Virus record (IMG/VR): IMGVR_UViG_3300035126_001490
Location: 1-35,793 of that record
Direction: 5' to 3' (one strand)
DNA length: 35,793 bases
Source: a virus
A program made the translations under genes and the position numbers. This document shows positions 1,533 through 33,739 of this stretch, one piece after another. A model generated the notes under the pieces. That model was not told the origin of the DNA and did not search any database. It worked only from the letters and a program-made list of their open reading frames with translations. Position 1 is the stretch's first letter. The number at the start of each line of letters is the position of its first letter.

Positions 1533-1542
1533 GGTATAAGTA
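1533..1542 (+). promoter_or_regulatory. GGTATAAGTA promoter element, copy 1
   Basis: This is an exact GGTATAAGTA in the gap after a terminator, with the ATG of the next gene 46 bases beyond its end. A 5' hairpin follows at once (AGCGA 1547-1551 with TCGCT 1561-1565). The same ten bases recur before other plus-strand units. No convincing -35 hexamer is visible at a fixed distance, so this looks like an extended -10-only or phage-specific promoter. Confidence 0.7.
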
Positions 1543-1587
1543 TTTTAGCGAAGTAAATTATCGCTGTCTAAAAAGGGGAAACACAAA

Positions 1588-2616
1588 ATGAACTTAAACC
1601 GAATAATCTTTCCAGAGATTATCCTCGGCCGGAGGGGGAATCCGGAAGTAATCAAAACATACAAAACATTCATGAAGCAAATTTTCAAAAGGTGGGATGA
1701 ATCTGCTGGCCGTGAGAAATGGCTTATCCCTGCAGTGAAGGATCCATTCACGGGCAGGCCTGACGAAAACCTAGCCAACCACCACCTTCTCTCAAAAGTA
1801 TTCAAGGAAAAGAACGGCAAGACTTATTACCTTAATAAAGACTTTGCTGTTGCTCTTTCCAAGATTGATCGAGAGATTCCTGTAGACATCCTACCTAGGA
1901 ACTTCATTGGCTACATCCAGTTCGCAGACGGGGCTCTGTGTGACGATACTGGAGAAGTTGACGGAGCGCTTGTGTGGATATCTACACTCGGCGAAATCGG
2001 ATACGGCAGCGAACCTGGCTACACAAGCGAGGATCTGGCCATCTCTATCAGCTATGGAAACAGATCCATAGACCCAGAGACTGGCCCTCCTACTGTGTGC
2101 AAGTTTGCATCCGTACTCCGAAAGCTCAGCACAATGGAGGATCTGTACGATCTTACAGAGCACAAGGACGAATCCTACCTGTCAAACCCCAGTGCGCTGA
2201 GTCTCATCAAAGGCCCTAAGAACCTGGGGGGAAGCGTAAAAGATCTCAGACTTCCGGTTCTTAGGGCTATCTTAAACGCCGTGATCTACGTCCACAGCGC
2301 AGATCCAGAGCTTGAGAAACTGGCTCCTCTTAAAGACTTCACGAACACAAAGCGTGCGGAGCTTAAGAAGAAGCATTCAGTTCACAACAACCTCACTGTC
2401 CCTGTCACACTACTGCATTGGAACTACCACTCTGAGACCATCTATTCAATGGATCAGACGATAGTATCAGCGCACCTCAGGTGGCAGAGATGCGGCGTGG
2501 GCCTAAGCCAAGTCAAACTTATCCTGATTAAGGAGCACGCGCGGAAGTTCAAAAACACCGTGTCTTCCCTTGGTCTAACAACACAGCAATCTATAATGGA
2601 GGAAGCGGCTGTATGA
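1588..2616 (+). CDS. hypothetical 342-residue phage protein
   Basis: ATG 1588 follows AAAAAGGGGAAACACAAA and the promoter element at 1533. The protein is soluble in appearance, with charged helices and no signal or membrane segment. Near the C-terminus (about 290-320) the segment AHLRWQRCGVGLSQVKLILI recalls a C-terminal pattern common in phage proteins of unknown function, roughly GHxRxQpxGxGrsxxkliwI. I hold that only as a recollection, not a family call. It overlaps the next gene as ATGA (2613-2616). Being under its own strong promoter and terminator suggests an abundant or separately timed product. Confidence 0.75.
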   Translation: MNLNRIIFPEIILGRRGNPEVIKTYKTFMKQIFKRWDESAGREKWLIPAVKDPFTGRPDENLANHHLLSKVFKEKNGKTYYLNKDFAVALSKIDREIPVDILPRNFIGYIQFADGALCDDTGEVDGALVWISTLGEIGYGSEPGYTSEDLAISISYGNRSIDPETGPPTVCKFASVLRKLSTMEDLYDLTEHKDESYLSNPSALSLIKGPKNLGGSVKDLRLPVLRAILNAVIYVHSADPELEKLAPLKDFTNTKRAELKKKHSVHNNLTVPVTLLHWNYHSETIYSMDQTIVSAHLRWQRCGVGLSQVKLILIKEHARKFKNTVSSLGLTTQQSIMEEAAV

Positions 2617-2948
2617 GTGATCCAGTAAAAGTTGAGAAAGTAGTCCGAATCAGCCTTGTCGCTAAAGCCGTGAAGAGGAAGTGCAGAAAAGAAGACCTAC
2701 ACCTCTACACTCTGAAAGACGTGACTTGGGATGGAGAAAACTTCCCTGAGTTTGACCCTGAATGGGAGAAGCTTGCTCTGGCTAAGTCGTATGAGATGTT
2801 TCGTACAATCGTCTCAAGCTACATCTTAGCTAAGCCGGTCAAGATCAAGCACTACGACGACGATACGGGAAAGTACTCCGTCGAGGAGTTCCTGTATCTA
2901 GGTGGAGACGAAAAAAAGTACCCACGACACAGTACAGTCTCTGAGTGA
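2613..2948 (+). CDS. hypothetical 111-residue protein
   Basis: The start overlaps the preceding stop (ATGA), and a GGAGG sits about ten bases upstream inside the previous gene, so translation is coupled. The product is acidic-basic mixed, with many tyrosines and lysines and a short hydrophobic stretch (MFRTIVSSYILAKPVKI) too weak for a membrane helix. No motif recognised. It is the last gene of the unit that ends at the terminator 2975-3005. Confidence 0.7.
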   Translation: MSDPVKVEKVVRISLVAKAVKRKCRKEDLHLYTLKDVTWDGENFPEFDPEWEKLALAKSYEMFRTIVSSYILAKPVKIKHYDDDTGKYSVEEFLYLGGDEKKYPRHSTVSE

Positions 2949-2974
2949 TCCCCCCGGGTTCTCGGAGGCAATAA

Positions 2975-3005
2975 GAAACACCTCACGGATGGGGTGTTTC
3001 TTTTA
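2975..3005 (+). terminator. intrinsic terminator
   Basis: GAAACACCTC (2975-2984) pairs with GGGGTGTTTC (2991-3000), ten pairs including one G-U, around ACGGAT, followed by TTTTAG. It ends the 1588-2948 unit and lies 33 bases before the next GGTATAAGTA element. Confidence 0.85.
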
Positions 3006-3037
3006 GCTAATCGCTGCGTAAAAACTTAGAATGGTCT

Positions 3038-3047
3038 GGTATAAGTA
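3038..3047 (+). promoter_or_regulatory. GGTATAAGTA promoter element, copy 2 (non-coding unit)
   Basis: Exact copy of the element, extended to GGTATAAGTAAAGTA, the same 15 bases found at 14862-14876. No credible gene follows before the terminator at 3202-3224, so it appears to drive a short RNA. Confidence 0.65.
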
Positions 3048-3053
3048 AAGTAC

Positions 3054-3225
3054 CAGGCAATTAGCGCGCAGCTGAGGCAAATGTATAGGGAAAGTATATT
3101 TGTTTGGATGCTTTGGTAAGTGGGGATCTTCAGTTGAGAGAGCTGAAGACAATTTATCATGTAGCAATCAAACAACTATATACAAACAACCAACATCCTC
3201 TCGCCCCAAAAGGGCGTTCTATTTA
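3054..3225 (+). ncRNA. putative small RNA, about 170 nt
   Basis: The unit is bounded by the promoter element at 3038-3047 and a hairpin terminator (CGCCC 3202-3206, GGGCG 3212-3216, then TTCTATTT). Inside is a 9-bp stem with a GAGAG loop (TCTTCAGTT 3127-3135, AGCTGAAGA 3141-3149). The only ATG frame is 12 codons (3081-3119) with a poor ribosome site. A TTG frame from 3100 runs on through the terminator into sequence antisense to the terminase and is unlikely to be used. The exact 5' end is inferred. A leader-peptide transcript is the alternative. Confidence 0.5.
3202..3224 (+). terminator. intrinsic terminator of the small RNA unit
   Basis: CGCCC/GGGCG with a CAAAA loop is followed by TTCTATTT. 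The stem is only five pairs but GC-rich. The run of T ends two bases before the terminase stop codon on the other strand, so plus- and minus-strand transcripts converge here with almost no spacer. Confidence 0.6.
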
Positions 3226-3226
3226 G

Positions 3227-6223
3227 CTAATACTGCTGATAGAAGTAGCGGGCCGCCTCCCTGCACATCAGAATTGAGTGGGCAGCGTCATCCGGCTCAG
3301 AAGGTCTATGGTCGTATCGAAGGCCGTGCACCCCTCCGAACTCAGCGTAGATATGCTCAATATCTACAAGGAAATCATGAGACTGCTCCCATGGCGGAAA
3401 GATGAACTTCTGGTTTTTTAGGTCATCAAAAAGGTCCGTGAGAACTTCTGTGCGGTTAAGCTGAACCTTATGACCCACAGGGTCGTACTTCTGACGCTCC
3501 TTCTGCATGCCGTTATGCTGAAACTTGATCACGCGACGAGGTCCAAACACGTCTTCTATGGTATCGTTCACACCCCACCCAAAGCCCCAATCAGACCCGA
3601 TCATGACTGCGTTGAACGCTTTACAGATCTGTATAATCTCACGCACGCAGTTACGGGGCAGCGCCTCTTCGCCTTTGAAACGCTTCTGAAAGAAAATGTA
3701 GAACTGCTTCGGATTGATGAACATACCGAGAGTTAGTACTGTATAAGAGGCGGTCTTAAGCCTGCCCTTGAAGTTTCGCTCGGTACCGTCTGCACCTTCA
3801 CCCCAGTCTATGCCAGCAAACACAGGCTGGTTCTGTGTTACTTCATCTGGCCTCCAGCGATAGGGGTGCTGCGGGCTGCACAAGCGCATCAGCTCAAAGC
3901 GCGAAATGGGCTTACTGGCCGAGTCGTATGAAAGCCCCAAGACTTCGTTATAGAACTGACCCTTCGAGTAGTGCTCCTTTTTCCAGACAAGCTCTTTCCA
4001 TTTCGTCGGAGACTGCATCCACGGAACCATAATCTGGTTCATATGGTAGCCGACCATGTCGTCTGTATTGTTGAAGGCAAACCACTTGCCTTTGGACGGA
4101 TCGATACGTTTTCCGCACTTATTGCAGATAGGGTACTCTTTACCGATAGACTTCTCGTCTAGGAAGTTCCAGTGGATTGGGATGTGAGCGTCGCAGGGTA
4201 CCAGCCATTCACACTGGTTACTGCTCTGCCACATTGTCTCGATATAGTTGTCCATCGTCAGAGGAGTGCCTGCAAAGATGACTTGAGGGTCCTCGGCGTG
4301 AGACAGCACTTCCATGATGACTGGGATATTCGCGGACAACATCGATTGGATCTCATCGATCATGAGTTCGTTGGCCGAGAGACCGCGAACACGCTCGGCG
4401 TTTAGGAAGGCCGATCTTAGGAAGATCAGGCTCCCGTTCGTAAAGCCCTTTTCGAACACCTGACTAGAGACCGAGGAGTCAATGAAGTACTTATTGATGA
4501 TGGGGCTATCCTGGGTCCATGGGGACAGCTTTCCGTTCGAAAATTGACGAGTCTGAAGATGGCTTGGGGATACGTAGACCGCCTTATTGTAAGGGCGGAC
4601 AATCGACCGGGTGATCAGGTAGTTGGCAAGCAGAGTTGAGTTATGCTGTACAATAAAGTTAGATATAAAGGTCTCGTTGCTAGTTTGGAGTGCCCACGTT
4701 TCTTTTTCTCCCACGTGTTCGATTGATATAATCTCATCCCAGAAGGTGTCTGACTCGCACAGAGAGGTGAGTGTTGGTTCTTCTAGTATGTTAGCAATCT
4801 TAGTGATCTTTTCGTAAGTAGGACTATACGAAGACGAGAGCTTGATCGCAGCCAGTGCTTTTGTCTTTGGGTTATCCTTCTGCCAGTACGTTCCTCTTTC
4901 TTCTCTAAGACGCCTTACCCACGCATGCACTTCTTTAGGGAGGGTATCGTAGTTGCTATTGGGAGATGTAGATGCAACATATTTCCCCGATTTCCCAAAA
5001 AGGGGGCCTAAAGCTTCGCAGAATATTTTTTTAGAGCGTTCAGTTACAACTGTGAGCAGGTGTGCGGGCTGAGCTCCTGCGGGAGTCTGAACCCGCCTAG
5101 AGACTTGGATTCCAAGTTTTCTAAGTAACGCCTCTACTTGGTCTGCCATCACAGGGCTTGTGGTGCAGTAGGTCGCATAGAGAGTGCCGTTTTTTGAGTT
5201 CTCACAGTAGCCGTCAGTACACCAAAGCCCTCTAAGCAGCTCGATGGTGGACTCTCGGTCCCACTCAAAGACTTCTTTTGGAAGATGTTTGGTGTGTGAT
5301 CTTTGCTGGAACAGATCTTCTTCCAGCATGAGCCACTTAGCTAGCCATGATCGTATGCTGAGTTCTACGCGGGCGTAATACTCTCTGCTGGGAAAAACAT
5401 TCGGTACAGTAGGATATCCGTTGGCCTCTGAAAACAGATCCAGTACGTGCGCGAGAAATTCTTTATTCCTCGTGTCGGTAGAGAGGGTGATCTTTCGCTG
5501 ACCATTTTTCTCGTACTTGTAAAAATAGCCATCCCCAAAGAGAGCTCCAACTAAGAAAGCAAATCTAAAGTTCTTGTTCCCAAAAAACCCAATATGCCGG
5601 GGAGAGGCAACTTTGTCGCCTACCACAAGATCGGCTGCGAGGGTCCATCCTGATAGCTTGAATAGGGGGTGGTTAGGGGTGCATTCGAAAGACTTACCTG
5701 AGCGCGTTGTAATTCTGAGGCAGGGCTGTGTGCCGTTTGATTTCAGAGCCGCTACCGAGACTGGCATTTGTTTTAGCAAGTCGGGGTCAAAACCCACAAT
5801 CAAGTCTCCGGGCTTGAGGGTCTGAATAGCCGTTACGCTGCCATTTGCTAAGTGAACGAGGGAGCCAGTAGGGAGGCACTTTTCATTCTGACGGGCCGTC
5901 TTAAAGATCATCCTAGGGTGCTTATTGTTGTAGCAGGGGTAAAGGTACTCACGCCCCTTGAAGCTGAAGGGAGCGCCGTCTAAGTAGACCAGGTTATGAA
6001 TCCAGTCGGTCATCTTCGCTTTGATGAAGTGCTTGGAGGTCCCGTCGGCTTGGAGGGTCTTTTGGACTTTCCAAGCAAGTTTTGGGGGTGTTTTGGAGTG
6101 GGCGCGCGTCTCGGAGGAGTGTGCTTTGTTTTTAGGTTCTACGTCATGACCCGCCGCGCCTGTCTCCTGTTTAGAGATTTCGTCTTCATTGGGGGAATTC
6201 GAGTCGTCGTAGTCATCGCGCAT
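3227..6223 (-). CDS. terL: terminase large subunit with in-frame intein
   Basis: The 998-residue precursor packages phage DNA into the procapsid as an ATPase-nuclease. An intein occupies residues 116-528, leaving a 585-residue mature enzyme, a normal TerL length. ATPase: Walker A is rebuilt by splicing as TARQNEK plus ST (residues 109-115, 529-530). Walker B is LMIDE (620-624), and the coupling motif is AGTP (651-654). A CxxC pair at C700/C703, with C671 and C677, may bind zinc. The RNase H-like nuclease has acidic residues in GIDWGEG (D806), GSDWGFG (D878) and PDDAAH (D978, D979). Start ATG 6223 has no clear ribosome site; a stem-loop (6246-6276) lies in the leader. The usual Gly before the Walker A Lys is Glu here. 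Terminase function is very likely. Confidence 0.93.
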   Translation of the reverse strand: MRDDYDDSNSPNEDEISKQETGAAGHDVEPKNKAHSSETRAHSKTPPKLAWKVQKTLQADGTSKHFIKAKMTDWIHNLVYLDGAPFSFKGREYLYPCYNNKHPRMIFKTARQNEKCLPTGSLVHLANGSVTAIQTLKPGDLIVGFDPDLLKQMPVSVAALKSNGTQPCLRITTRSGKSFECTPNHPLFKLSGWTLAADLVVGDKVASPRHIGFFGNKNFRFAFLVGALFGDGYFYKYEKNGQRKITLSTDTRNKEFLAHVLDLFSEANGYPTVPNVFPSREYYARVELSIRSWLAKWLMLEEDLFQQRSHTKHLPKEVFEWDRESTIELLRGLWCTDGYCENSKNGTLYATYCTTSPVMADQVEALLRKLGIQVSRRVQTPAGAQPAHLLTVVTERSKKIFCEALGPLFGKSGKYVASTSPNSNYDTLPKEVHAWVRRLREERGTYWQKDNPKTKALAAIKLSSSYSPTYEKITKIANILEEPTLTSLCESDTFWDEIISIEHVGEKETWALQTSNETFISNFIVQHNSTLLANYLITRSIVRPYNKAVYVSPSHLQTRQFSNGKLSPWTQDSPIINKYFIDSSVSSQVFEKGFTNGSLIFLRSAFLNAERVRGLSANELMIDEIQSMLSANIPVIMEVLSHAEDPQVIFAGTPLTMDNYIETMWQSSNQCEWLVPCDAHIPIHWNFLDEKSIGKEYPICNKCGKRIDPSKGKWFAFNNTDDMVGYHMNQIMVPWMQSPTKWKELVWKKEHYSKGQFYNEVLGLSYDSASKPISRFELMRLCSPQHPYRWRPDEVTQNQPVFAGIDWGEGADGTERNFKGRLKTASYTVLTLGMFINPKQFYIFFQKRFKGEEALPRNCVREIIQICKAFNAVMIGSDWGFGWGVNDTIEDVFGPRRVIKFQHNGMQKERQKYDPVGHKVQLNRTEVLTDLFDDLKNQKFIFPPWEQSHDFLVDIEHIYAEFGGVHGLRYDHRPSEPDDAAHSILMCREAARYFYQQY
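4640..5878 (-). other. intein with LAGLIDADG homing endonuclease inside TerL
   Basis: Residues 116-528 of the terminase precursor (413 aa) form a complete intein. It begins with Cys116 (CLPTGSLVHLANG, block A). Block B is CTPNHPLF, with the Thr-x-x-His pair T182/H185. It ends at FISNFIVQHN with His-Asn528, followed by Ser529 as the +1 nucleophile. Two LAGLIDADG-type helices are seen at about 222-233 (FAFLVGALFGDG) and 328-338 (ELLRGLWCTDG), each with the acidic residue needed for cutting, so the endonuclease may still be active. Insertion lies between the Walker A Lys and Ser/Thr, the most conserved site of the host protein, as expected for a homing element. Removal is needed for a working ATPase. 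Confidence 0.93.
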
Positions 6224-13302: not shown

Positions 13303-13368
13303 AGAACTTTCACCTTAGGATCATCATACAAATTTTTTATCGCAGTAGGCAAAAACTTCCTGCACCTT

Positions 13369-13379
13369 GGAATAAGATA
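13369..13379 (+). promoter_or_regulatory. weak variant of the GGTATAAGTA element
   Basis: GGAATAAGATA lies 40 bases before the ATG of the first gene of the island, the same spacing as the exact copies, and resembles the element with one substitution and one insertion. It is the only candidate promoter in the 117-base gap. Confidence 0.3.
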
Positions 13380-13419
13380 TTTAGTGGTTAACCAGGATTA
13401 TTCAATAGTGGAGGGGAAT

Positions 13420-14050: not shown

Positions 14051-14375
14051 TGTACACGCTTGTGAGGTGTTTATCTTCAAGAGAAGTCTCATTCCAGATG
14101 TGTATGTGAAGTTCTACTCTGATAAAACGGAATTTGAACTCTACGAGGATGACTACTTTAAGGTAGACCTGATGCACTTTCTGCAGCGAATGGGATACAA
14201 GGGCCACCACTTTGATCGCGCAGAACTTGGGATGCAAGGACACAACTTCGTGGTGTTTGAGCCCGGAAAGTCTTTTGAGTCGTTCGCTAAGAAGCTTGGC
14301 TGGATTGATGAAGCTGGCCCAGATCCTGTAGGCGAACAGCAAGAACTTTTTCAGGACAATTCGCTGCTTCACTAG
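13989..14375 (+). CDS. hypothetical 128-residue protein
   Basis: ATG 13989 follows GGGGAGAGAG and overlaps the preceding gene by 62 bases. The frame is kept to its own stop at 14373-14375, where the ssb promoter begins. The protein is soluble, aromatic-rich and mixed alpha/beta (DVYVKFYSDKTEFELYEDD). No motif recognised. The large overlap is unusual, but both frames have good ribosome sites. Confidence 0.65.
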   Translation: MDWEQERISLGNGLFRSRNGDVHACEVFIFKRSLIPDVYVKFYSDKTEFELYEDDYFKVDLMHFLQRMGYKGHHFDRAELGMQGHNFVVFEPGKSFESFAKKLGWIDEAGPDPVGEQQELFQDNSLLH

Positions 14376-14384
14376 GTATAAGTA
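14375..14384 (+). promoter_or_regulatory. GGTATAAGTA promoter element, copy 3 (ssb)
   Basis: Exact copy whose first base is the last base of the previous stop codon. The ssb ATG lies 61 bases after the element. It is followed immediately by a perfect hairpin and a palindrome in the leader. Confidence 0.75.
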
Positions 14385-14388
14385 TTCC

Positions 14389-14422
14389 AGAGCAGCAAGG
14401 TCGCTGCTCTGTTGTCGACAAC
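14389..14422 (+). promoter_or_regulatory. ssb leader: 8-bp hairpin and 12-bp palindrome
   Basis: AGAGCAGC (14389-14396) pairs perfectly with GCTGCTCT (14403-14410). The next twelve bases, GTTGTCGACAAC (14411-14422), are a perfect palindrome. Both lie between the promoter element and the ribosome site (GAGAGGAAA). A 5' stabilising hairpin or a protein operator is likely. Confidence 0.6.
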
Positions 14423-14838: not shown

Positions 14839-14861
14839 CAGCCCAATACTATGATGTATCG

Positions 14862-14871
14862 GGTATAAGTA
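14862..14871 (+). promoter_or_regulatory. GGTATAAGTA promoter element, copy 4 (non-coding unit)
   Basis: Exact copy 23 bases after the ssb stop, extended to GGTATAAGTAAAGTA like copy 2. The next 330 bases hold no convincing gene but are rich in secondary structure and end in a terminator. Confidence 0.7.
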
Positions 14872-14877
14872 AAGTAA

Positions 14878-15204
14878 GGGATAGTTAGTAGTAGCTCCAA
14901 ACAGGTCAAAAATAACTTTGCATGTAAGTTATATTTCATCTTTTGAGTGGCTACGAATGCTATTGCACTTACTCAGTAACCATCACACCCAGAATCTTAA
15001 TCTGTTTAAACATCCGTTCCAGTGACTGGGCGGCAATACGATACGTTGTTACTTGTAAAGCAACTTTACAAGTCTGGTGGATTAGGGTTCTGGGTAGTGA
15101 GTTACAGAGTGGGTTGCGCCACCTGTATCCCCTAACGTGCACGTTGGGGAGATATGGGTGGCGGTAACCCTAACCGCAAGCTCGGGAAACCCCCGAGATT
15201 TTTT
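14878..15204 (+). ncRNA. putative structured non-coding RNA, about 325 nt
   Basis: The unit is bounded by the promoter element at 14862 and the terminator at 15181-15204. A perfect 10-bp hairpin ACTTGTAAAG-CAA-CTTTACAAGT lies at 15051-15073. A long imperfect hairpin spans 15111-15170: GGGTT/AACCC, GCCACC/GGTGGC, TGTAT/ATATG (with G-U pairs), CCCC/GGGG and AACGT/ACGTT pair in order around a GC loop, about 25 pairs. An alternative stem GCGGT/ACCGC (15161-15177) would compete with its base. The only frame of any length starts at a TTG (14943) without a ribosome site. The 5' end is inferred. It could also be the 3' part of the ssb transcript. Confidence 0.6.
15181..15204 (+). terminator. intrinsic terminator of the structured RNA
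   Basis: CTCGGG (15181-15186) pairs with CCCGAG (15192-15197), followed by ATTTTTT. On the opposite strand the same T-run bases form the stop region of the convergent gene ending at 15203. Confidence 0.8.
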
Positions 15205-15724
15205 AGTAGTATTGATTACCGCTGTAAACAACTGGCGGCGGGGTTTGCGGCTGTGGATCGTTCCCCCCACCTAGGGCTGCCTGCATAGCTCCGTAGGCAG
15301 CAACACCTGTTAGGACGGGATGGCGAGCGGCAAATGACGGTCCTTTGGGTTTGTTTTTTAAGTCACGCACGCGCTGTGCCCGCTCGGTGGCTTTTTGCAA
15401 AGCGTCATTCGCGGTGTTGAAGTGTTCGCTCGGTGTCATTTGAGGGAGGCCTTGCTGCGCGCGGCGAGCTGCTTCACGCTGAACGGCACCTTCGGCGTAG
15501 TTTTGGCCAAAGGGGGTCTTCCCTTTAGCTGCCCTAAATCCTTCGGTGAAGTTACTGAGGCCCTGGGTTTGGATATTCCTAGGTTTGAAAGGCGCTTTTA
15601 TTGCGTTCTTAGCGCTTCTTGCCGCCGCCGAGAGTGACCCCGCAGCCTGTCCCATCCTGCTACCTACCGTAGACATTAGGCCTCCGAACATGGCCTCTTT
15701 TTTAAATCCTTGTGTGAATCCCAT
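15203..15724 (-). CDS. small virion-like protein with GFxK tag
   Basis: The 173-residue protein starts MGFTQGFKKEAMFGGLMSTV, with the N-terminal tag shared by four other proteins here. It is rich in Ala, Gly, Lys and Arg, with a weakly hydrophobic Ala/Gly helix near the C-terminus (HPVLTGVAAYGAMQAALGGG), and ends GNQYY. Its ATG overlaps the stop of the polymerase gene (TAATG), so the two are translationally coupled. It may therefore accompany the polymerase in the particle. Function unknown. Confidence 0.75.
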   Translation of the reverse strand: MGFTQGFKKEAMFGGLMSTVGSRMGQAAGSLSAAARSAKNAIKAPFKPRNIQTQGLSNFTEGFRAAKGKTPFGQNYAEGAVQREAARRAQQGLPQMTPSEHFNTANDALQKATERAQRVRDLKNKPKGPSFAARHPVLTGVAAYGAMQAALGGGNDPQPQTPPPVVYSGNQYY

Positions 15725-18700
15725 TAGTAGCTCTCTTTCTTCTTACCAAAGCTTGCGCCGTATGCGAATGCCGGGACGGGGTGCCGGCCTTCTAACTGAC
15801 TGGACCAGCTTTCGGCGGCTCCTTGAGTCAATGCTTGCTTGACGTATCGGTACCCAAGTTGACTCATCCAGTCCTTTCTAAGAAGGGGTATCCTAGTAAT
15901 ACCCTCTAGCTGGGGGGTATGTACAATAGGGTCTTTTACTACCTCAATCTTACCATTCTGAGCCGCGGATTTCAGCTTGGGAAGGTCTCTGTCGGTAATT
16001 TCATGGAACTTGGGTAGGTTTCCTACTGGGTTTGCTAGGTTGTAGCCAACGGCGTCTTCGGGCCGTACCGATACCTTCCGGCTTTCGTTGTAGTGCTCGG
16101 CCGCCGTGAAAGGGATTAGGTCTCCTGGTAAAACCCCTGCGTGTCTTGGGGCGTTTTTGACCAGAGTGCTGTCAGCAACGGACCTGACCACAGTCTCGAA
16201 TACTTTGCGGTGAGTATTCACGCCTTGGTCGACAAAGGTCCTTTTTAGCTCGTCTACAATGTATTCCTGAGCCGCTCCCATGCCTTTTTGCTTCAATAAC
16301 TTATGTGGGTTTAAAACGCCTTCTGACAGTTTATCCCCCGCTTGAACACTCTCTCCCACTTTTACGGCGGGGTTCAGACCTGGGCGTACTGTGTGCAGCT
16401 TTTCCCCCACATGAATGTGAAATCCTCCGGCAGGGCTCCGTCCTATTTTGGTGACCTTACCCGCGACATCTGCCGTGGTTGCTTCACCGGAAACGTACTT
16501 AGGCATGTTCAGCAAGTCAGACACACGCTTGAACCCGGAAACCTGAGGGGCTCCGCTAGAGACCCCGCCGGTGTGGAACGTACGCATCGTCATTTGAGTG
16601 ACGGGCTCACTCATTGTCTGGCCCATCTTAGCCCCGATGTTCTCTCCGATCTCGGGGCGCTTTCCGTGCTCATCTATCCCGAAGCAGTGCGCACAAGTCC
16701 CTTTAGTCTCTAAACACTTTAAAGGTGACCGGACTGTCAAAGTCTTGACCCCGCCCCTCTTCATGACGCTGAGGAGCTGTGGAGTCACTTGAGTATTTCG
16801 AGCGGATCCGTGCTGGTCGTGCGCAAGATAGCGATCCATTATGTCTGTACTGTCTACAGACATAACGGTCCCTTTTTTGGTTCCGCAATCATCGGCGCTT
16901 ACTAGATTGTTGATAGTGGCGGCCATGATATCCTTGTTCAGCGCGCCGGGCTTGGAGGTGGCTAGAGCTCGGTCGATCATCCCTTTGCGCACTCCGTACG
17001 CGCTGACAAAGTAGTCTGAGGTAGTTACCCCCTCCGCGTAAGATTTCTTGATGGGAACGGGAACTTTCCTGTCCTTTGCGTCCATAAGTATGCCCGGAGC
17101 AGAGACAATCTGCATAAGCTGAGAGTCGCTGCCGCGAGCCCCGCTGGAGACCATGTGGTAGAAGTTGTTGTCTGTTTTCTTTAGTTGGTCTTTGGTGCGG
17201 TTGTAGGCCTCTTTTGCGACGCCTTCGTACATGTCCGCAATTTTCTTGTCCAACTCAGGCCCGGGCTTGTGCGCTCTACGTAGCGCCGCAGCTTGCTGAT
17301 CTGCGCGATGGAATAGGGTGTCGCGCATCTTAGTATCGATTTGTAGATCTTTTATGGAAGTCGTAAAGCCGCGCTCGTAGGCGTGCTCGTCGCCCATCAA
17401 TTTCAGCTTCTGGACTAGGTTAGGGAACTCTTTCGGCAGCTCGCGCGCCAGCTGGTTATAGAGCGTCTTGGATTTCTTACCATCCAGGCTTTCCGAGACG
17501 TGGTATTTCGGAGGTAGTACGGAGTTGAGTTTTTTACGCCCCTCAGGGTTTTGTGACATGAAATAGATGCCAATCTGGCTTTCCTGCGAGGGTACAGTCA
17601 TCAACTCTCCGGTGCCTGGCTTGAATAGATTCTGCGAAGGCAACATCTTGTGACTCTCTCGCAGCGCCTCTTCTGTGGTGGGCACGTGGATGTTGACCGC
17701 GTCTCCGTCGAAATCCCCGCCGTATCCTTTAAGAACCAGGGGCGGGACTTTAATAGCCAGGCTGTCCGTAAGGACGGGCTTGTGAGCCATGATCGAGAAC
17801 TTATGAAGCGATGGCGCGCGGTTCATTAGAACGGTGCGCTGCTTCATCGTGTCCATGAGCATTTTCTTAGCCAGAGGAGTTTTGGCCTCAATCTCTTTTC
17901 TAGCAAAGTCAGATTTATATCCGTTCTTACCAAACTCTCGGATTACGAACGGATTGAATACCTTCCAGGCCATTTTCTCCGGAACCCCAATCTCGTCCAT
18001 GTGGAGCTCCGGACCCGCTGTAATAACTCCTCGGCCAACCAGATCCTGTCGTTTGCTCAGGAGCTTTTGGATAAAAAAGCCCTGCTTTGGAGTTTCATTT
18101 GCGATCTCGTCGATAAACCCATTGATAGGCTGGTCTTTGCCGCGCGTAAGGACGGGCTCAAGCCCTGCGACCGCTCGGGTGGCTTTATAGGTCTCGTTTC
18201 GTATCTCTCCCTTGACCCTGTCTGGAAGGAACTTCATCACCGGGTATTTCGAAGTCTCCGTTAATATACCCACGTTCTGGTAGAGCAGGTTTGGAGACGC
18301 TACGACAATCCCTCTGTCCTTGCTTTCTTGGATGGGTCGGAACATCGGCGGTATTACCGGGATATGCTGTCTTAGATAAGCCTCGTCAGGCTTCATTCCC
18401 AGATCATCCAGCGCCTGTAGTATTCGTATTTTTTTATTTAGGCCGTCTAGGTGCCGGGGGTCACTAGATTTCCTCAGCAGCGCACGCGTTTTGGTCAGCT
18501 CACCTTGGACATCGATGTTTTTGAGAAGGGACTCGAAAGCTTTGCCTCCAGTCAGACTCCCTTCTGTTTTCTCGCCGGATATTTTTCCATCCTTGGAAAG
18601 ATGGCGTGTACCCGCAATCAGACCCTCGTAATCAGGCTGCTTGATACCGGCTAGGTTTTTAATAGCCGACTCAAAAACCGGGTTGGGTAGTTTTTCGGAT

Positions 18701-21700
18701 AGGCTCATGTGCGCGTACCGATTACCGTTCATGCCGCCGGTTATGCGCACGTCAAAGAAACCGTTAGGTATTTCCTTCATGTTTTTCGCGTAGAAAAACT
18801 GAGGATCTGTGATCTGCCCGTTGCTGATTTTCTTTACGTCTTCGTCAGTCATGGGGGCCAGACGCACTTCGTTTCCAACTTTGTGCGTGTTGACGCCTGC
18901 GCCCCGTATCATGTGCAGAAACTTCTGATAGGCGAAGCTTTCCTTTGGCGGGGGGAGTGGGCGCCCCTGCTCCAGGGCCCTCCAGAACTCATCGTTTCTC
19001 TCAGACTTGATGTGCGCATCGAGGAGGTTCTTTTTTGCTCCGTGAGAGAGCATTGAATAGAAGGTGAGCTGGTCTAGGGTCTTAGTCCCCTCTTCGCCGC
19101 CTTTGATTGGCTGTAGGTTGGCGTCGTACCCCTCTCCGGGCATACGAGCTGAGAAGCCAGCCTTACCAGTTTTGGCGAGGCGCAGGATATGAGGCATGCC
19201 TACGTGCACGTCACCGATCTTCTTACCCTCGGGGGTGTACATAGTTTCAACGTCAGAAATCCCGTGCTTCTTAAGTTCGTCTAGAATTTTCTTATTAGTA
19301 TTTTCGGCGGAGAAGTTTTTGATCTTGTACGGCTGTCCCACTTTAGCCGCAATCTTTCCAGCCGCCGACTCGTATAGCTGGCCTAGGTTAATACGGCCGA
19401 CGACTCCGTGCGGATTGAGAAACACATCAGGAACAGAGCCGTCCGAGAATTTAGGAGCATCTTTGTCTGCGATGACTTTGGTAATGACTCCTTTGTTCCC
19501 GTGAACGCCCGATAATTTGTCCGACTCTTTTGCAGGCTCTACTGCCTTGACGTACACAAGGACTTCGCTGCCCCTCTTAGCGATATCGGTAACTACTCCA
19601 GGGAACTCTCCGTTGTAAGTCACGGAGGCGTTCGACCACGGCATGATCAAACTTTTGTTTAGTTTTCTCAGGCTCATGTTTTCTGGGTTGTTTAAGTTGT
19701 AGTGCAGTCCTGCAATCAAGACCTGGCCCGGCTGAACTACCTGACCCTTTTTGATAATTCCGCTATCGTCGTACTTGGTGACGTCATCCTTTTTTAGGAT
19801 GTTAGGATAATATCCCAGGAATCTTTTGAAGTTTAACTCCGTCTTTCCTTTTTCAAGCGGGAATCCTTGCTTGTATATCTGCTCTGCTGCCAATTTTTTG
19901 GCGGCACTCTCAGTGATGACAATTCCGTCTTCGAACGTGAGTCCGGGGTACGGAAGATACGCTACCTTGAGGTTAGTGCCTAATGCGAGCTGGCCGTTTT
20001 TGGTGAAATTACTGTCCGCAACTACCTGACCCCCCTTCACTCTATCCCCCACTTTTACCGTAGGGGTGTGGTGCAGGTGAGTTTTTTGGTTTAGCGGGAA
20101 GTTATTGTATAGAGGAACTTTCTTGCCGCTAATCTTAATATGGTCTGGGGTTATTTCTTGGACCACCCCATCATTAGTCGCCTTGGCTGAAAACTCGCTT
20201 CCGATAAGCTCATGGAAAGTTTTCTTGTCGTCCACAAGTGTCTGTACCAGAGGGGCTTCGCGGTGCACCAGCGGCAGGGTCTGGCCAAGCATCTTGGCGG
20301 CCATCACCGCGCGGTTACCTTGGTCGTTCTTTAGGAAAGGTACCAGATTGGTGGCGTAGCTGAACAGCCGTGAGGCCTCTGGTATTACGTAGTCGACTTG
20401 CTTGGATGGTACTACAGACACCTTACCTTCGTGCTGGACCCGCACCTCAGCCGCATTTCTGAACTTGGCTTCGTGGATCTCATCAGGGAACGCAACGACC
20501 TTGGAGTGCAGCTCTCGGGGGGTAAGAAATTCCAGTTTTCCAGTCCTTACATTTTTAACAGCCGTCCTAAGCTCGCGGCCGTCTTTAATCACGCCGGCAG
20601 ACATGTGCATGGTCGTGCCGATTTTCTCGCTTTCTGGAGTATGCACTGGATCTATATATCCAAGGTGTGACGGGTGGACCTCGCGCAAGTTGTCCGCCAC
20701 GGCATGCGCACTTGTAATGCCTCCAGTACCATGAACAGTTAGCTTGTTCATTTCGGAGATCATGTGGACTGGATTATACTGCTCCGGAGTAGAAGTTCTA
20801 TTGTCACTGACGAAGAAGTTTTCAACGGGCGACGTCAGTTTGCGGAAGTCGATCATCCGCTTTAGGTTATTGCGGGATCCTAAGTGGCGCGACAGCATCC
20901 GTTTAAGAGCGTCCTGCTCTTTCTTGCTACCTAGCTTGTCGTGGATCATGTCCTCGACTGATCTTATTTCTTTGAATAGCAGGTTCTCTGGGTCGTCGGC
21001 CTGCGCCTTACCTTGATAGGCAGCGAGGATCTTGCCCGAAGTGTCTAGTAGTAGCTTAGATGACAGCTGACTGTGCTCGTGACCCAAGGTCATCCCGGTT
21101 ACCTTGGGGTCAAGTTGCGTCGTCTTTGCATACTCGCGTAGCTTTTCTTGGGCGGTGCTTGCGTTGTCTGTGGTTGCTTTGGCCAGCTTGTCCGCAAATC
21201 CGATAATATGCTGGGGCGACTCGCGTTTGTTCGCTGCAAAAACCTGTTCACCCCAGGCTTTGATCATGTCGTTGTCAGAAGCTCCGAGCGCTTTCAGCAA
21301 CGGATACAGGGGCTTGTGAGATCCCCCGACTTTAATGGTGTATCTGTTTGTGCTCGGGTCTAAGTTTATATCAAAGTTTTGCGTGCGCTCCCCGCCCAGA
21401 GAGATCATTCCTTTGAAAGTATCTCCCTTCTGAGACCTGACTACATAGGCCCCCGGTTTACGGATCATCTGGTTTGCAACCTGATATTCGTTGCCCTTAA
21501 CGATAAATGAGTTTCTCGGGGTCAGTTTCGGTATAGTGGACAGCTTTACCTTATCTAGCCTGTCTACGATCTTACCGTCGGGATCCTTAAGGACGAGGCT
21601 TGCGTACACCGGAAGTCCCCACGTGCCGCCCCCTAGTTTGGTTTTTTTCTGCGACGTGTAGTCCTGAGTGTCCAGCTCACGCTCGTCAACCCAGATCTTG

Positions 21701-21810
21701 GCAAGCTCCATCCGGTGACCGTTTTTCTCAACGGGGAACAGCTGCTGGTACGCCCCAATGACCTCGTCGGTCAGTGCCTTAAATTGATCGGATCCGGAAA
21801 GTGTTCTCAT
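15724..21810 (-). CDS. single-chain beta/beta-prime DNA-directed RNA polymerase
   Basis: The 2028-residue protein joins both large subunits of a multisubunit-type RNA polymerase. The beta half (about 1-1030) has FIVKGNEYQVANQMIRKPGA, REVHPSHLGYIDPVHTPES, PFLKNDQGNRAVMAAKMLGQ, GLTFEDGIVITES and LSGVHGNKGVI. The beta-prime half follows with VGRGVITAGPELH, LMNRAPSLHKFSIMAHKPVL and the catalytic Mg site DFDGD (1366-1370). It also has a bridge helix (YFVSAYGVRKGMIDRAL, about 1597), zinc cysteines C1642/C1699/C1706/C1709 and a trigger-loop helix (TMRTFHTGG, about 1740). It is far shorter than E. coli beta plus beta-prime (about 2750), and the beta-prime N-terminal zinc finger is missing. No full alpha, omega or sigma is seen nearby. 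All main active-site elements appear intact. Placement among virion genes allows packaging in the particle. Confidence 0.95.
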   Translation of the reverse strand: MRTLSGSDQFKALTDEVIGAYQQLFPVEKNGHRMELAKIWVDERELDTQDYTSQKKTKLGGGTWGLPVYASLVLKDPDGKIVDRLDKVKLSTIPKLTPRNSFIVKGNEYQVANQMIRKPGAYVVRSQKGDTFKGMISLGGERTQNFDINLDPSTNRYTIKVGGSHKPLYPLLKALGASDNDMIKAWGEQVFAANKRESPQHIIGFADKLAKATTDNASTAQEKLREYAKTTQLDPKVTGMTLGHEHSQLSSKLLLDTSGKILAAYQGKAQADDPENLLFKEIRSVEDMIHDKLGSKKEQDALKRMLSRHLGSRNNLKRMIDFRKLTSPVENFFVSDNRTSTPEQYNPVHMISEMNKLTVHGTGGITSAHAVADNLREVHPSHLGYIDPVHTPESEKIGTTMHMSAGVIKDGRELRTAVKNVRTGKLEFLTPRELHSKVVAFPDEIHEAKFRNAAEVRVQHEGKVSVVPSKQVDYVIPEASRLFSYATNLVPFLKNDQGNRAVMAAKMLGQTLPLVHREAPLVQTLVDDKKTFHELIGSEFSAKATNDGVVQEITPDHIKISGKKVPLYNNFPLNQKTHLHHTPTVKVGDRVKGGQVVADSNFTKNGQLALGTNLKVAYLPYPGLTFEDGIVITESAAKKLAAEQIYKQGFPLEKGKTELNFKRFLGYYPNILKKDDVTKYDDSGIIKKGQVVQPGQVLIAGLHYNLNNPENMSLRKLNKSLIMPWSNASVTYNGEFPGVVTDIAKRGSEVLVYVKAVEPAKESDKLSGVHGNKGVITKVIADKDAPKFSDGSVPDVFLNPHGVVGRINLGQLYESAAGKIAAKVGQPYKIKNFSAENTNKKILDELKKHGISDVETMYTPEGKKIGDVHVGMPHILRLAKTGKAGFSARMPGEGYDANLQPIKGGEEGTKTLDQLTFYSMLSHGAKKNLLDAHIKSERNDEFWRALEQGRPLPPPKESFAYQKFLHMIRGAGVNTHKVGNEVRLAPMTDEDVKKISNGQITDPQFFYAKNMKEIPNGFFDVRITGGMNGNRYAHMSLSEKLPNPVFESAIKNLAGIKQPDYEGLIAGTRHLSKDGKISGEKTEGSLTGGKAFESLLKNIDVQGELTKTRALLRKSSDPRHLDGLNKKIRILQALDDLGMKPDEAYLRQHIPVIPPMFRPIQESKDRGIVVASPNLLYQNVGILTETSKYPVMKFLPDRVKGEIRNETYKATRAVAGLEPVLTRGKDQPINGFIDEIANETPKQGFFIQKLLSKRQDLVGRGVITAGPELHMDEIGVPEKMAWKVFNPFVIREFGKNGYKSDFARKEIEAKTPLAKKMLMDTMKQRTVLMNRAPSLHKFSIMAHKPVLTDSLAIKVPPLVLKGYGGDFDGDAVNIHVPTTEEALRESHKMLPSQNLFKPGTGELMTVPSQESQIGIYFMSQNPEGRKKLNSVLPPKYHVSESLDGKKSKTLYNQLARELPKEFPNLVQKLKLMGDEHAYERGFTTSIKDLQIDTKMRDTLFHRADQQAAALRRAHKPGPELDKKIADMYEGVAKEAYNRTKDQLKKTDNNFYHMVSSGARGSDSQLMQIVSAPGILMDAKDRKVPVPIKKSYAEGVTTSDYFVSAYGVRKGMIDRALATSKPGALNKDIMAATINNLVSADDCGTKKGTVMSVDSTDIMDRYLAHDQHGSARNTQVTPQLLSVMKRGGVKTLTVRSPLKCLETKGTCAHCFGIDEHGKRPEIGENIGAKMGQTMSEPVTQMTMRTFHTGGVSSGAPQVSGFKRVSDLLNMPKYVSGEATTADVAGKVTKIGRSPAGGFHIHVGEKLHTVRPGLNPAVKVGESVQAGDKLSEGVLNPHKLLKQKGMGAAQEYIVDELKRTFVDQGVNTHRKVFETVVRSVADSTLVKNAPRHAGVLPGDLIPFTAAEHYNESRKVSVRPEDAVGYNLANPVGNLPKFHEITDRDLPKLKSAAQNGKIEVVKDPIVHTPQLEGITRIPLLRKDWMSQLGYRYVKQALTQGAAESWSSQLEGRHPVPAFAYGASFGKKKESY

Positions 21811-21873
21811 CGTTTTGTTCCTTATCCAAGTCTATCACCAAGTCCGGCGGGAGAAAAATACAACAATTCTGCT

Positions 21874-21883
21874 GGTATAAGTA
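21874..21883 (+). promoter_or_regulatory. GGTATAAGTA promoter element, copy 5
   Basis: Exact copy in the divergent gap between the polymerase gene and the plus-strand gene at 21937, with 53 bases from the element to the ATG. No matching minus-strand copy is visible for the polymerase gene itself. Confidence 0.75.
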
Positions 21884-21889
21884 GGTTGC

Positions 21890-21919
21890 TCAAGTCAGCG
21901 AAATCAATCGCATACTTGA
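21890..21919 (+). promoter_or_regulatory. 5' leader hairpin
   Basis: TCAAGT (21890-21895) pairs with ACTTGA (21914-21919), and GCGA (21898-21901) pairs with TCGC (21908-21911), around AATCAA. The hairpin sits between the promoter element and the ribosome site GGAAAAGGAG, like the ssb and 1588 leaders. Confidence 0.55.
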
Positions 21920-22429: not shown

Positions 22430-22464
22430 GAAAGACCCCCGCGAAGGTGGGGGTCTTTCTTTTA
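22430..22464. terminator. bidirectional intrinsic terminator
   Basis: GAAAGACCCCC (22430-22440) pairs perfectly with GGGGGTCTTTC (22449-22459), followed by TTTTAG on the plus strand and TTTC-rich sequence on the minus strand. It separates the convergent genes 21937-22425 and 22462-22815. The minus-strand stop codon overlaps the plus-strand T-run. Confidence 0.88.
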
Positions 22465-28805: not shown

Positions 28806-28911
28806 TTTATGCCTCGCAGTGTCAATTCTAGAATATCTCCTACTTAAATCATAGCACAGAAACACCCATTTTAAGAGAGCCCCCTTGACAGGCAAAAAAT
28901 TAACACAATGC

Positions 28912-28921
28912 GGTATAAGTA
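28912..28921 (+). promoter_or_regulatory. GGTATAAGTA promoter element, copy 6
   Basis: Exact copy 41 bases before the ATG at 28963. A TTGACA lies upstream at 28884-28889, but the spacing to TATAAG is 24 bases, too long for a standard sigma-70 promoter. The ten-base element itself is the conserved part. Confidence 0.75.
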
Positions 28922-28962
28922 TCTTGGTGACCTGTTAACTCATTTACAGAAAGGAAATCCAT

Positions 28963-29394
28963 ATGGAAACTCAAACCAACTTCGGACAAATTCGTGATCT
29001 GCTCTCTGAGGCTCAGCTGAACGCTATCCTTGACGCCGCCGAGGCAAGGGCAAAGGAGCTGCTGAAGGACGCTAAGTTCGATAACGACAATAGCCGTAAA
29101 ACCGCTATTGATGCTAAAGCAGGAGAGATCCTGTTTGGCGGTCTTCAAAAGGTCTTGGACGAACACAAAACGTTCCTCCACCTGACAAAGCTAGGCTGGT
29201 GGGGAGACAAGTTCGTTAGCGCTGCTATGAATGCTATCGTGCTTTTTGGCGGTATTGCAGTGGCTTCCTACATCTCAAAGCCAAGTCAGAAGTCTGATGC
29301 AGAGAAGGACGCAGCTCCAGCAGGAGAAGCCAACCCCTTCAAAACTAAAGCTACTGACCGTCCGATTCGCCCGTCGCGCGAGCTCGTTGCCTAA
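28963..29394 (+). CDS. single-gene island: small membrane protein
   Basis: The 143-residue product has a helical, charged N-terminal part (METQTNFGQIRDLLSEAQLN), a transmembrane segment at about 87-104 (AMNAIVLFGGIAVASYI) and a polar tail with NPF (EANPFKTKATDRPIRP). ATG 28963 follows AAAGGAAA. Like 21937 it is a lone plus-strand gene with its own promoter and a double terminator, inserted in minus-strand virion genes, and has the same layout of helical domain, membrane segment and NPF tail. A host-modifying or superinfection role would fit a moron but is inference. Confidence 0.8.
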   Translation: METQTNFGQIRDLLSEAQLNAILDAAEARAKELLKDAKFDNDNSRKTAIDAKAGEILFGGLQKVLDEHKTFLHLTKLGWWGDKFVSAAMNAIVLFGGIAVASYISKPSQKSDAEKDAAPAGEANPFKTKATDRPIRPSRELVA

Positions 29395-30106: not shown

Positions 30107-30107
30107 A

Positions 30108-30497: not shown

Positions 30498-30532
30498 GGA
30501 CTAGATCCTCTTTCCCCTAAGCTACCACATTC

Positions 30533-31872: not shown

Positions 31873-31893
31873 TAGTGTGTCTCCAGTGGTTTG

Positions 31894-31917: not shown

Positions 31918-31927
31918 TCCCTATAGC

Positions 31928-32149
31928 TTACTCTTTTCGTTGTATCACAGAAAATGACATGAGCGCTTTCAAAAGAGCGCCTACAACTGGCATTGCTTCA
32001 AGCTTAGCAAGCATCGCATCGTCTTCTAACGACGGAGTGAGCTTTACGTAGACAGTAGCCACAACCACCAATGATCCCAGCACGAGTAGGACAATGTGTG
32101 CGATCGGATGAATAGAGTTAACCCAAGCCAACACGAGTGACATATCCAT
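31928..32149 (-). CDS. small membrane protein, holin candidate
   Basis: The 73-residue product has a strong ribosome site (AAGGAGG) before ATG 32149. One clear transmembrane helix is at about 17-37 (AHIVLLVLGSLVVVATVYVKL), a short amphipathic second hydrophobic stretch follows (MPVVGALLKALMSF), and a charged end (QRKE) closes it. Size and layout suit a holin or a small host-membrane protein. No endolysin is seen near, so the holin call is only a candidate. Confidence 0.6.
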   Translation of the reverse strand: MDMSLVLAWVNSIHPIAHIVLLVLGSLVVVATVYVKLTPSLEDDAMLAKLEAMPVVGALLKALMSFSVIQRKE

Positions 32150-32221
32150 AGATACCTCCTTACGGTATGCCTATAGGTTACACTGGGGTAGTCTAAATAC
32201 AAACTGCGGTAGGAATTTGAA

Positions 32222-32851
32222 TTACTTACGGTTTTGGTAAGCTATCTCTGAGCCCAGGTCGTGGGCGAAGTGCTTGAGCTCATCTAGTTTCTTAGGCTTA
32301 TCTATAGGACTTAACCAAGTCAGAAACAGAACTCCGTACATCTTACCGTACTGGTTTCTGACAGCCGTCATAGCAACGGTGTGACATCCGGTAGCGCGCA
32401 GTGAGTCCTTCATCGCAAACTCATCCGGCAAATCCTCGACTGAGCTAAACATTATATTCTCAGCCTCTTTAATCCTATCCAGACAGTGAAGCATCACACT
32501 TACCGGGATATTTAGATAAGGATTACCGTTACTTACAGGAGAGCTAACTCCGCGTTTGAGCGCGAAGTGCGTTATAGAAAGTTTCTGAACGCTCTCTCCA
32601 GATAGGAAGTAGTCGCCATTGTGAAACTGAAATAGCTTAACCCGATCGCAGTCAAACACACCCCTACACTCGTACAGGAGAGCCTGCAGGCGAAGGTTAC
32701 GGTTAATGACATTCTCAACACTAAAGAACGCTTTAGCTTCAATTTTCTTTTTGGCTGCGGACAGTATGTAGATGCCCGCCGCCATTAAAATGGCGCCCAG
32801 CACACCCCCAGCCTCGGTGGCTAGGCTTGTGATGTTAAATAAAGACTCCAT
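32222..32851 (-). CDS. membrane-anchored protein with a GAF-like domain
   Basis: The start is ATG 32851 (MESLFNITSLATEAGG); a TTG six bases earlier is possible. A transmembrane helix lies at about 16-34 (GVLGAILMAAGIYILSAA), then a linker helix, then a soluble domain with DRVKLFQFHNGDYFLSG and YGKMYGVLFLTWLSP. That layout recalls GAF-like sensory domains that I associate with phage and bacterial membrane proteins. No histidine kinase or cyclase part is present. Role unknown. Moderate confidence in the domain, low in any function. Confidence 0.6.
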   Translation of the reverse strand: MESLFNITSLATEAGGVLGAILMAAGIYILSAAKKKIEAKAFFSVENVINRNLRLQALLYECRGVFDCDRVKLFQFHNGDYFLSGESVQKLSITHFALKRGVSSPVSNGNPYLNIPVSVMLHCLDRIKEAENIMFSSVEDLPDEFAMKDSLRATGCHTVAMTAVRNQYGKMYGVLFLTWLSPIDKPKKLDELKHFAHDLGSEIAYQNRK

Positions 32852-32918
32852 AAACAAACACCCGCCTTAACTTGTAGTTTACACAAGCAAGCAAGCAACC
32901 TCTAGACTAGGTAGGAAT

Positions 32919-33692
32919 TTAAGGTTTGGGCTGGATCGTATCCGCTATCCATTGGAAGACCTGACTGACTTTAGAGTAAACTCCAAATCGTTGAGGCCTT
33001 GCACATCCGTAGCCCCAGCTAACAACACCTACTAAGAGGGGAGTCCCATCCTCCATTTGGACTAGAAGGGGGCCGCCGCTGTCTCCCTGACACGAGTCTT
33101 TCCCGCCCTCGTCGAGTCCCGCACAAATCATGGTGTCCGTAATATCCCCTGGATATGCGGCCTGGCATTTTTCATCGGACTGGATAGGGACCTCTACTTT
33201 CATTAGGACCGGCGCAGCTCCGCCGCCCTCGTATAGTGATCCCCAGCCAGCAGTAATCGCCGCGAGGTCATCCAAAGGATCAAGAACTCCTCCGTCTCCG
33301 TTTAGCTGGATCGGGCTAAACCTAGAGGAGCCTTCGAGCTCGATCAGAGCGTAATCGTGATCGAACTGATTGCGAGACTCATAACTTGGGTGCTTAATCA
33401 CTTGCTTGATCTTAAACATCTCAGGCGGAGCTTCGCGAAGTCTGTGATGGCCGAGTGCGACAACCCCGCTAGCCTGGAGTCCTGGAAGGATACAGTGGGC
33501 GGCCGTTAAAACCCAGTTAGGGGCGATAAGCGACCCGCCACAAAAATGACTGCCTGTAGGAGAGCGTCTGAGAGAAGTCATGAACGGAAACTCGCCGGGA
33601 GTGGCCTCCACTCCTCCTACAATAAGAGGCTGCGGGGCCCAGGCAGTTGTAGTGGCTAATAGAAGCAGGATTGCAGATAACCGTGAAACCAT
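32919..33692 (-). CDS. secreted trypsin-like serine protease (S1A)
   Basis: The start is ATG 33692, since GGAGG lies five bases upstream; an earlier ATG at 33704 lacks this. The 257-residue protein has a signal peptide (MVSRLSAILLLLATTTAWA), then a short propiece and the mature S1 start IVGGVEATPGEFPF. The catalytic triad is His66 (TAAHC), Asp113 (DHDYALI) and Ser205 (GDSGGP). Asp199, six residues before Ser, gives trypsin specificity for Lys/Arg. Three canonical disulfide pairs can be drawn (Cys51-67, 176-190, 201-230). Activation would need cleavage after Leu, not Lys/Arg, so it would not activate itself. A near-consensus promoter element lies upstream. An intact secreted trypsin is unusual in a phage. 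Confidence 0.92.
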   Translation of the reverse strand: MVSRLSAILLLLATTTAWAPQPLIVGGVEATPGEFPFMTSLRRSPTGSHFCGGSLIAPNWVLTAAHCILPGLQASGVVALGHHRLREAPPEMFKIKQVIKHPSYESRNQFDHDYALIELEGSSRFSPIQLNGDGGVLDPLDDLAAITAGWGSLYEGGGAAPVLMKVEVPIQSDEKCQAAYPGDITDTMICAGLDEGGKDSCQGDSGGPLLVQMEDGTPLLVGVVSWGYGCARPQRFGVYSKVSQVFQWIADTIQPKP

Positions 33693-33729
33693 ACCGCCCT
33701 CCATGGCGAAATGATCGAGCAGGTTGGAC

Positions 33730-33739
33730 TACTTATACT
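33730..33739 (-). promoter_or_regulatory. near-consensus promoter element on the minus strand
   Basis: The minus strand reads AGTATAAGTA, one base from the consensus, ending 37 bases before the protease ATG, the same spacing as the plus-strand copies. It is the only close minus-strand match noticed in the window. Confidence 0.6.

Follow-up and report, generated by a model that had tools for sequence, protein, structure and literature searches.

Phage sigma factors are known mostly for redirecting the host RNA polymerase, as SPO1 gp28 and T4 gp55 do, and the T4 late promoter, TATAAATA, is a short AT-rich element without a −35 part. The best-known phages with cellular-type polymerases, phiKZ and AR9, have specificity factors unlike sigma. 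According to one review, the factor on which the AR9 and phiKZ polymerases depend does not resemble sigma in sequence, and jumbo phages lacking a polymerase of their own usually encode clear sigma homologs that likely work on the host polymerase (PMC7598289). Here, we analyzed a viral DNA stretch of 35,793 nucleotides, IMG/VR record IMGVR_UViG_3300035126_001490 (the window hereafter), which carries several copies of a ten-base element, GGTATAAGTA, together with a gene for a fused β-β′ RNA polymerase. This element forms the −10 part of a promoter with two parts, the other being a −35-like block, and phages of Salmonella, of Vibrio, and of unknown hosts with the RNA polymerase and a sigma factor in common have the same promoter. 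We consider it quite probable that a phage-made holoenzyme, consisting of the fused polymerase and this sigma, reads the promoter for the replication-side genes.

As with SPO1 gp28 and T4 gp55, the system combines a small sigma-like phage protein and a dedicated promoter class, which is two-part as in the middle promoters of SPO1. Unlike in SPO1 and T4, a full β-β′ polymerase is made by the phage and the promoter class is confined to one strand. The earlier note on this DNA had likened the element to the T4 late promoter. Both are short AT-rich elements upstream of genes, but the likeness does not hold further, as here the TATAAGTA core is accompanied by a −35 block in a −35/−10 layout and lies on the replication-gene strand, opposite the structural genes. 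With phiKZ and AR9 the family shares a cellular-type polymerase in a large phage and phage-specific promoters; the review describes split subunits and a non-sigma specificity protein (AR9 gp226) for those phages (PMC7598289), whereas here one chain of 2028 aa covers both β and β′, the promoter is of the −35/−10 kind, and a recognizable sigma is present in 20 of 20 large contigs. The virion and non-virion polymerases of P23-45 and gp66 of crAss-like phages are likewise single-chain two-barrel enzymes with dedicated promoters, as described in PMC10770324; unlike them, the present polymerase readily aligns with bacterial β′ and is accompanied by a sigma. The mReC lineage of RNA polymerase-encoding Caudovirales, known from IMG/VR contigs and having a polymerase alignable to cellular β and β′, probably overlaps or equals the present family; the words sigma and promoter have 0 occurrences in the main text of that paper (PMC7481178). 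None of 12 records matched the mReC capsid family PF07068, and the control genomes were likewise without a match. The parts are of known kinds, and what is new is the polymerase-sigma combination, the one-strand use of the promoter, and a possible co-switching at the −12 base.

The two-part promoter and its strand

Exact copies of GGTATAAGTA begin at positions 1533, 3038, 14375, 14862, 21874, and 28912 of the window, all 6 on the plus strand and all intergenic (between likely genes). In 100 dinucleotide shuffles of the window, the mean expectation was 0.06 and 6 copies were never reached (0/100), which bears out the copies and positions that the earlier note had listed. Allowing at most one mismatch gave 10 matches versus 1.41 expected.

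To describe the full site, relatives were collected via the portal protein (G001–G005 at 56–60% identity, G006–G008 at 36–37%), and a matrix was trained on 60 noncoding sites of G001–G004, with the window kept out of the training. G005 was left out because its sequence duplicates that of G004 at several sites. Training retained noncoding matches only, which favors the noncoding shares in the training genomes. Genes in the relatives were called with a simple purpose-written caller rather than a published one; noncoding counts are approximate and site-to-start distances follow its start choices, whereas raw strand counts are unaffected by the caller. The nonamer GGGTATAAG is over-represented between genes in each of G001–G005 and is not among the over-represented intergenic 9-mers of G006–G008. 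In the matrix, positions −22 to −14 relative to the core read aGGCAAAA; GGTATAAG comes next, and T and purines follow at +13 to +18. The promoter layout is AGGCAAAA, a 17-base spacer, TATAAG, and a TG-rich start region (GGCAAA-N17-TATAAG), and nearly every site has G as the final base of the −10. This is a sigma70-type arrangement, with two conserved blocks about 17 bases apart and start codons downstream on the same strand, often at 16–60 bases.

The 25 bases upstream of the 6 window sites, scored with the matrix, gave a mean of 3.9 against a null mean of −13.0, a value reached in 0 of 100,000 draws. The statement that no fixed −35 hexamer accompanies the element is wrong for the class, although the upstream element at 1533 is weak (p 0.09). 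At a threshold of 15, the matrix recovers the 6 copies and a seventh at 13369 that had been missed. The promoters of the window are as follows.

1511..1550, plus strand: promoter, exact core 1533–1542, score 17.8, weak upstream part; heads open reading frames (ORFs) 1588–2616 and 2613–2948
3016..3055, plus strand: promoter, exact core 3038–3047, score 18.5; unit without a convincing ORF
13347..13386, plus strand: promoter missed by the earlier note, core GGAATAAGAT at 13369–13378 with AGGCAAAA, score 26.9; ATG at 13420, 41 bases on
14353..14392, plus strand: promoter, exact core 14375–14384, score 19.5; heads the single-strand-binding protein (SSB) gene 14446–14838 (SSB by phrog_44)
14840..14879, plus strand: promoter, exact core 14862–14871, score 29.2; strongly folded unit without an ORF
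21852..21891, plus strand: promoter, exact core 21874–21883, score 19.3; heads ORF 21937–22425, divergent from the RNA polymerase gene
28890..28929, plus strand: promoter, exact core 28912–28921, score 29.2; heads ORF 28963–29394

A homolog of ORF 21937–22425 adjoins the polymerase gene in G001–G005. The ATG lies 45 (1533), 61 (14375), 53 (21874), and 41 bases (28912) past the end of the element, in close agreement with the 37–62 bases given before for copies followed by a gene. The view that the element heads transcription units fits these 4 copies, and no convincing ORF lies behind those at 3038 and 14862. A position right after a terminator or stop codon was seen at 1533, which is preceded by a terminator-like hairpin (1486–1515), and at 14375, where the copy overlaps the stop codon of ORF 13989–14375 by one base.

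The single-mismatch copy at 33730 (minus), previously counted as a member in front of the trypsin gene, was rejected as a promoter. It is most likely a chance occurrence because its total matrix score is −2.8 and the nearly invariant first G is lost. The single-mismatch copies at 11522, 11634, and 11887 (scores −5 to −23) were also rejected, as were stem-loops at transcript 5′ ends, which did not reach significance as a feature of the class (p 0.46, 0.035, 0.67, and 0.10 in four genomes).

The promoter is strongly biased to one strand. Sites scoring at least 15 number (plus/minus) 7/0 in the window, 0/24 in G001, 0/6 in G002, 0/22 in G003, 10/0 in G004, and 0/8 in G005, with less than 1 expected by chance on both strands together, and in all six the promoter strand is opposite the polymerase, portal, and terminase genes. 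In Salmonella phage Arash, GGTATAAG is the top noncoding 8-mer (25 minus, 1 plus), and in Vibrio phage D69 this place is taken by GTTATAAG (18 minus, 1 plus); Arash also has TGGTATAAG, which is extended −10-like. By their annotations, both phages have replication and nucleotide-metabolism genes on the minus strand, and the plus strand encodes terminase, structural proteins, and polymerase. As it is present in both phages, the promoter is not tied to one host. A host search in bacterial genomes returned seven loci in metagenome-assembled genomes of mixed phyla, which point to no host.

The bias extends to a wider sample, in which the contig sets used for locus and strand counts contain near-duplicates. 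Counted around 72 more polymerase loci, GGTATAAG is on the strand opposite the polymerase 59 times and on the same strand 9 times (noncoding 50 vs 4, p 3.8e-11, near-duplicates included); loci in contigs already used had been dropped, which removed 7 of 79 for the polymerase and 3 of 80 for the sigma. Across 18 whole large contigs the counts are 144 opposite and 33 on the same strand, and the backwards pattern occurs 75 times in all. One contig, G024, has its bias reversed relative to the polymerase, not relative to the sigma. Together, motif, two-part form, and strand bias, computed directly from the genomes, support a real promoter class. We found no description of it among the open-licence PMC papers searched.

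The phage polymerase, its candidate sigma factor, and the second strand element

Two window genes encode RNA polymerase domains.

15724..21810, minus strand: fused β-β′ RNA polymerase, 2028 aa (Pfam Rpb2_6 1e-44, Rpb1_5 7e-28, Rpb1_2 4e-27)
924..1460, plus strand: protein with an RNA polymerase alpha C-terminal domain (PF03118 above cut-off)

The fused chain matches bacterial β′ chains in the PDB at 5e-102, with the catalytic GGDFDGD in the alignment; with β and β′ core domains and the catalytic DFDGD, it is a cellular-type two-barrel RNA polymerase. Its gene is present in 8 of 8 relatives (G001–G008), and polymerase-bearing relatives reach about 209 kb. The named relatives, at about 30–32% identity, are Salmonella phage Arash and the Vibrio phages D69, D181, and D148. 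Extra sequence interrupts the polymerase gene in G001 and G004/G005, probably an intein or intron. The terminase gene of the window (3227–6223, minus) contains an intein with LAGLIDADG domains. Judged from its sequence, the protein with the alpha C-terminal domain is a possible transcription accessory; PF03118 was also found weakly in G020.

A Pfam search for sigma regions 2 and 4 gave nothing above cut-off in the first nine records. Arash and D69 have two sigma-like genes each, and homologs of Arash gp10/D69_0011 were found in G001 (2.7e-16), G003 (5.5e-18), and G008 (7.7e-22). The sigma alignment was founded on five proteins, each of which scores above the Pfam cut-off for sigma-70 region 3 (Sigma70_r3); regions 2 and 4 appear below cut-off, in one member each. 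A profile of the five matched solved sigma factors in the PDB at 2e-13, with an alignment spanning most of the protein, and on this evidence the Arash gp10-like proteins belong to the sigma70 family. For the four gp10-like proteins tested, the best PHROG family is a sigma factor, weakly so for G003. In 20 large contigs picked by polymerase and length, a sigma70-family gene occurs once per contig in all 20, and on the polymerase strand in 18. A second, different sigma is encoded at 120656–121693 (+) in Arash (gp196 type) and at 133187–133963 (−) in D69; searches of G001 and G003 did not recover the gp196 type.

The −12 base varies within the class. G012 has no G-N-TATAAG and instead has G-N-CATAAG, 17 times on the replication side and 3 times elsewhere, with a CTAAAAA-like block upstream. 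After 80 of 107 sigma loci had been kept for analysis, 58 genomes (56 contigs, Arash, and D69), whose 58 sigmas form 38 clusters at 70% identity, were compared. The T form occurs 853 times opposite the sigma and 242 times on its side, and the C form 455 and 225 times. By a one-sided binomial test (<0.02), 23 genomes were called T and 9 C. The sigma position corresponding to K85 of Arash gp10 is G or S in 9 of 9 C genomes and neither in 22 of 23 T genomes, the exception being G025 with S. K85 falls in region 2.4 and aligns, depending on a one-residue gap, to what we take to be residue 437 or 438 of E. coli sigma70, in which residue 437 reads the −12 base. On a sigma tree built without those columns, the motif state changes 4 times and the residue class 3 times, allowing 3–4 independent pairs with 0 discordant. 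These alignments make it suggestive that the −12 T/C switch tracks a region 2.4 residue of the sigma.

The structural strand carries another element, TAAAATA. In D69 it occurs 27 times on the structural strand and 5 times on the other (noncoding 15 vs 5), in Arash 11 and 4 times (noncoding 7 vs 4), and around 77 sigma loci the noncoding counts by strand are 88 and 15. No clear strand bias was seen in G001, G003, or the window. As a structural-strand element, TAAAATA is clear in D69 and around the sigma genes and suggestive in Arash. In both phages, many genes of the plus strand have it 19–51 bases upstream, among them the C-terminal part of the polymerase in Arash and, in D69, short genes just before the polymerase. 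The element is T4-late-like and distinct from the GGTATAAGTA class, and the two abut head to head at three places in Arash. Since TAAAATA precedes polymerase-region genes, the polymerase is probably a late product, which would make its packaging into the virion plausible.

The reader of the promoter

In the mechanism we favor, the fused polymerase encoded in the window would join the small sigma70-family protein of the Arash gp10 family, whose gene would lie elsewhere in the genome, on the structural-gene strand. The holoenzyme would then serve the strand with the replication and nucleotide-metabolism genes, leaving the structural strand to its own element. That the sigma binds the motif, that the phage polymerase is its partner, and that the units concerned are early or middle genes is our inference. 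The co-occurrence of sigma and polymerase in all 20 large contigs, itself a computed result, suggests one machine. It also counts against the alternative to which we give a modest share of the probability, namely that the phage sigma redirects the host RNA polymerase to these promoters, with the phage polymerase acting on a different class, for example TAAAATA. That scheme accords with a sigma family recognizably sigma70-like, with the many structural-strand genes preceded by TAAAATA, and with the precedent, in PMC7598289, of polymerase-less jumbo phages whose sigma homologs likely act on the host polymerase. Reading of the element by host sigma and host polymerase, as a variant extended −10 promoter, would explain its bacterial-like −35/−10 layout and 17-base spacer and the extended −10-like TGGTATAAG of Arash. 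We regard it as improbable, as the element is shared by phages with different hosts, consensus host promoters (TTGACA-N16-18-TATAAT) number 0 in 10 of 10 genomes scanned, and the G that ends the −10 in nearly all sites differs from the T that host sigma70 binds, according to PMC7598289. Least probable of all, to a degree that makes it very hard to credit, is that the element is no promoter but a signal marking the strand for replication, packaging, or recombination. The near-perfect strand bias across whole genomes would suit such a signal, but the element often stands 16–60 bases ahead of a start codon, and when coding matches are allowed, its sites are noncoding in 22 of 27 cases in G001 and 22 of 24 in G003, though the matrix was trained on noncoding sites there. 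A phage-encoded reader is by far the likeliest for this promoter class, and the proposal of the earlier note that a phage polymerase or sigma reads the element was largely right.

Several observations weigh against the phage-made holoenzyme as the reader. The phage sigma might drive the host polymerase. The window has no sigma gene; at 35.8 kb, the record is probably a genome fragment. The second sigma of Arash and D69 could be the promoter's reader in those two phages. GGTATAAG is absent from 5 of the 18 large contigs, and no clear substitute element was found in G015 and G020 (66% GC). For the −12 base, 25 of the 58 genomes received no call and 1 received both, and the covariation is without significance because there are only about 3–4 independent changes. 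In a blind scan of 204 sigma columns over 28 clusters, K85 was outside the top ten and its neighbor ranked third; that other columns lead the scan is the outcome that shared ancestry would give.

Candidate folded transcripts, other features, and meaning for the family

The two units without a convincing ORF are candidate structured RNAs.

14877..15207, plus strand: candidate structured noncoding RNA from the 14862 promoter; −138 kcal/mol, z −9.05, 0/100 shuffles; terminator 15181–15197
3053..3224, plus strand: candidate structured noncoding RNA from the 3038 promoter; z −3.14; terminator-like hairpin 3202–3216

No Rfam match was found anywhere in the window. Between SSB and the polymerase 3′ end, G001–G004 also have the motif followed by DNA folding at z −2.7 to −7.8. 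A second motif at this site in G001 gave z −1.5, and the G001 motif there is followed by a 345-base ORF, making that unit not ORF-free. These folded regions do not align in sequence. This region may be a conserved structured RNA. Structure as a general trait of ORF-poor motif units was rejected as weak (z < −2 in 22% of 37 such units vs 20% of 87 gene-bearing units), and the SSB-polymerase site alone stands out.

Some structural-strand proteins share an N-terminal M-x-F-x-x-G-F-x-K-like motif (15203–15724, 22462–22815, and 22812–23222, minus, in the window; 42556, 42823, and 43336 in G001), perhaps a sorting or assembly tag; a PHROG search gave no name for several structural-strand proteins. 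In Arash, a roughly 100-base intergenic repeat containing TATATAA elements is spread across the genome in five nearly identical copies (26687, 66434, 100190, 138537, and 173311). At 32919–33704 (minus) and 33817–34985 (plus), the gene for one secreted-looking trypsin-like protease adjoins two genes for 2OG-Fe(II) oxygenase-like or ferrochelatase-labelled proteins.

A bolder picture is possible, although we lean against it as a whole. The family would carry a complete bacterial-style holoenzyme, with a fused β-β′ polymerase and a true sigma, made late and packed into the virion; transcription of the replication strand would begin in the first minutes and not need the host enzyme, each strand would have its own promoter class, and sigma and promoter would have co-switched at the −12 base several times. 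A family with both a cellular-type polymerase and a sigma would offer a second transcription system of bacterial type that is natural and compact enough for purification, with Salmonella phage Arash and Vibrio phage D69 as cultured members, and the promoter rule would help to annotate many uncultured large phages.

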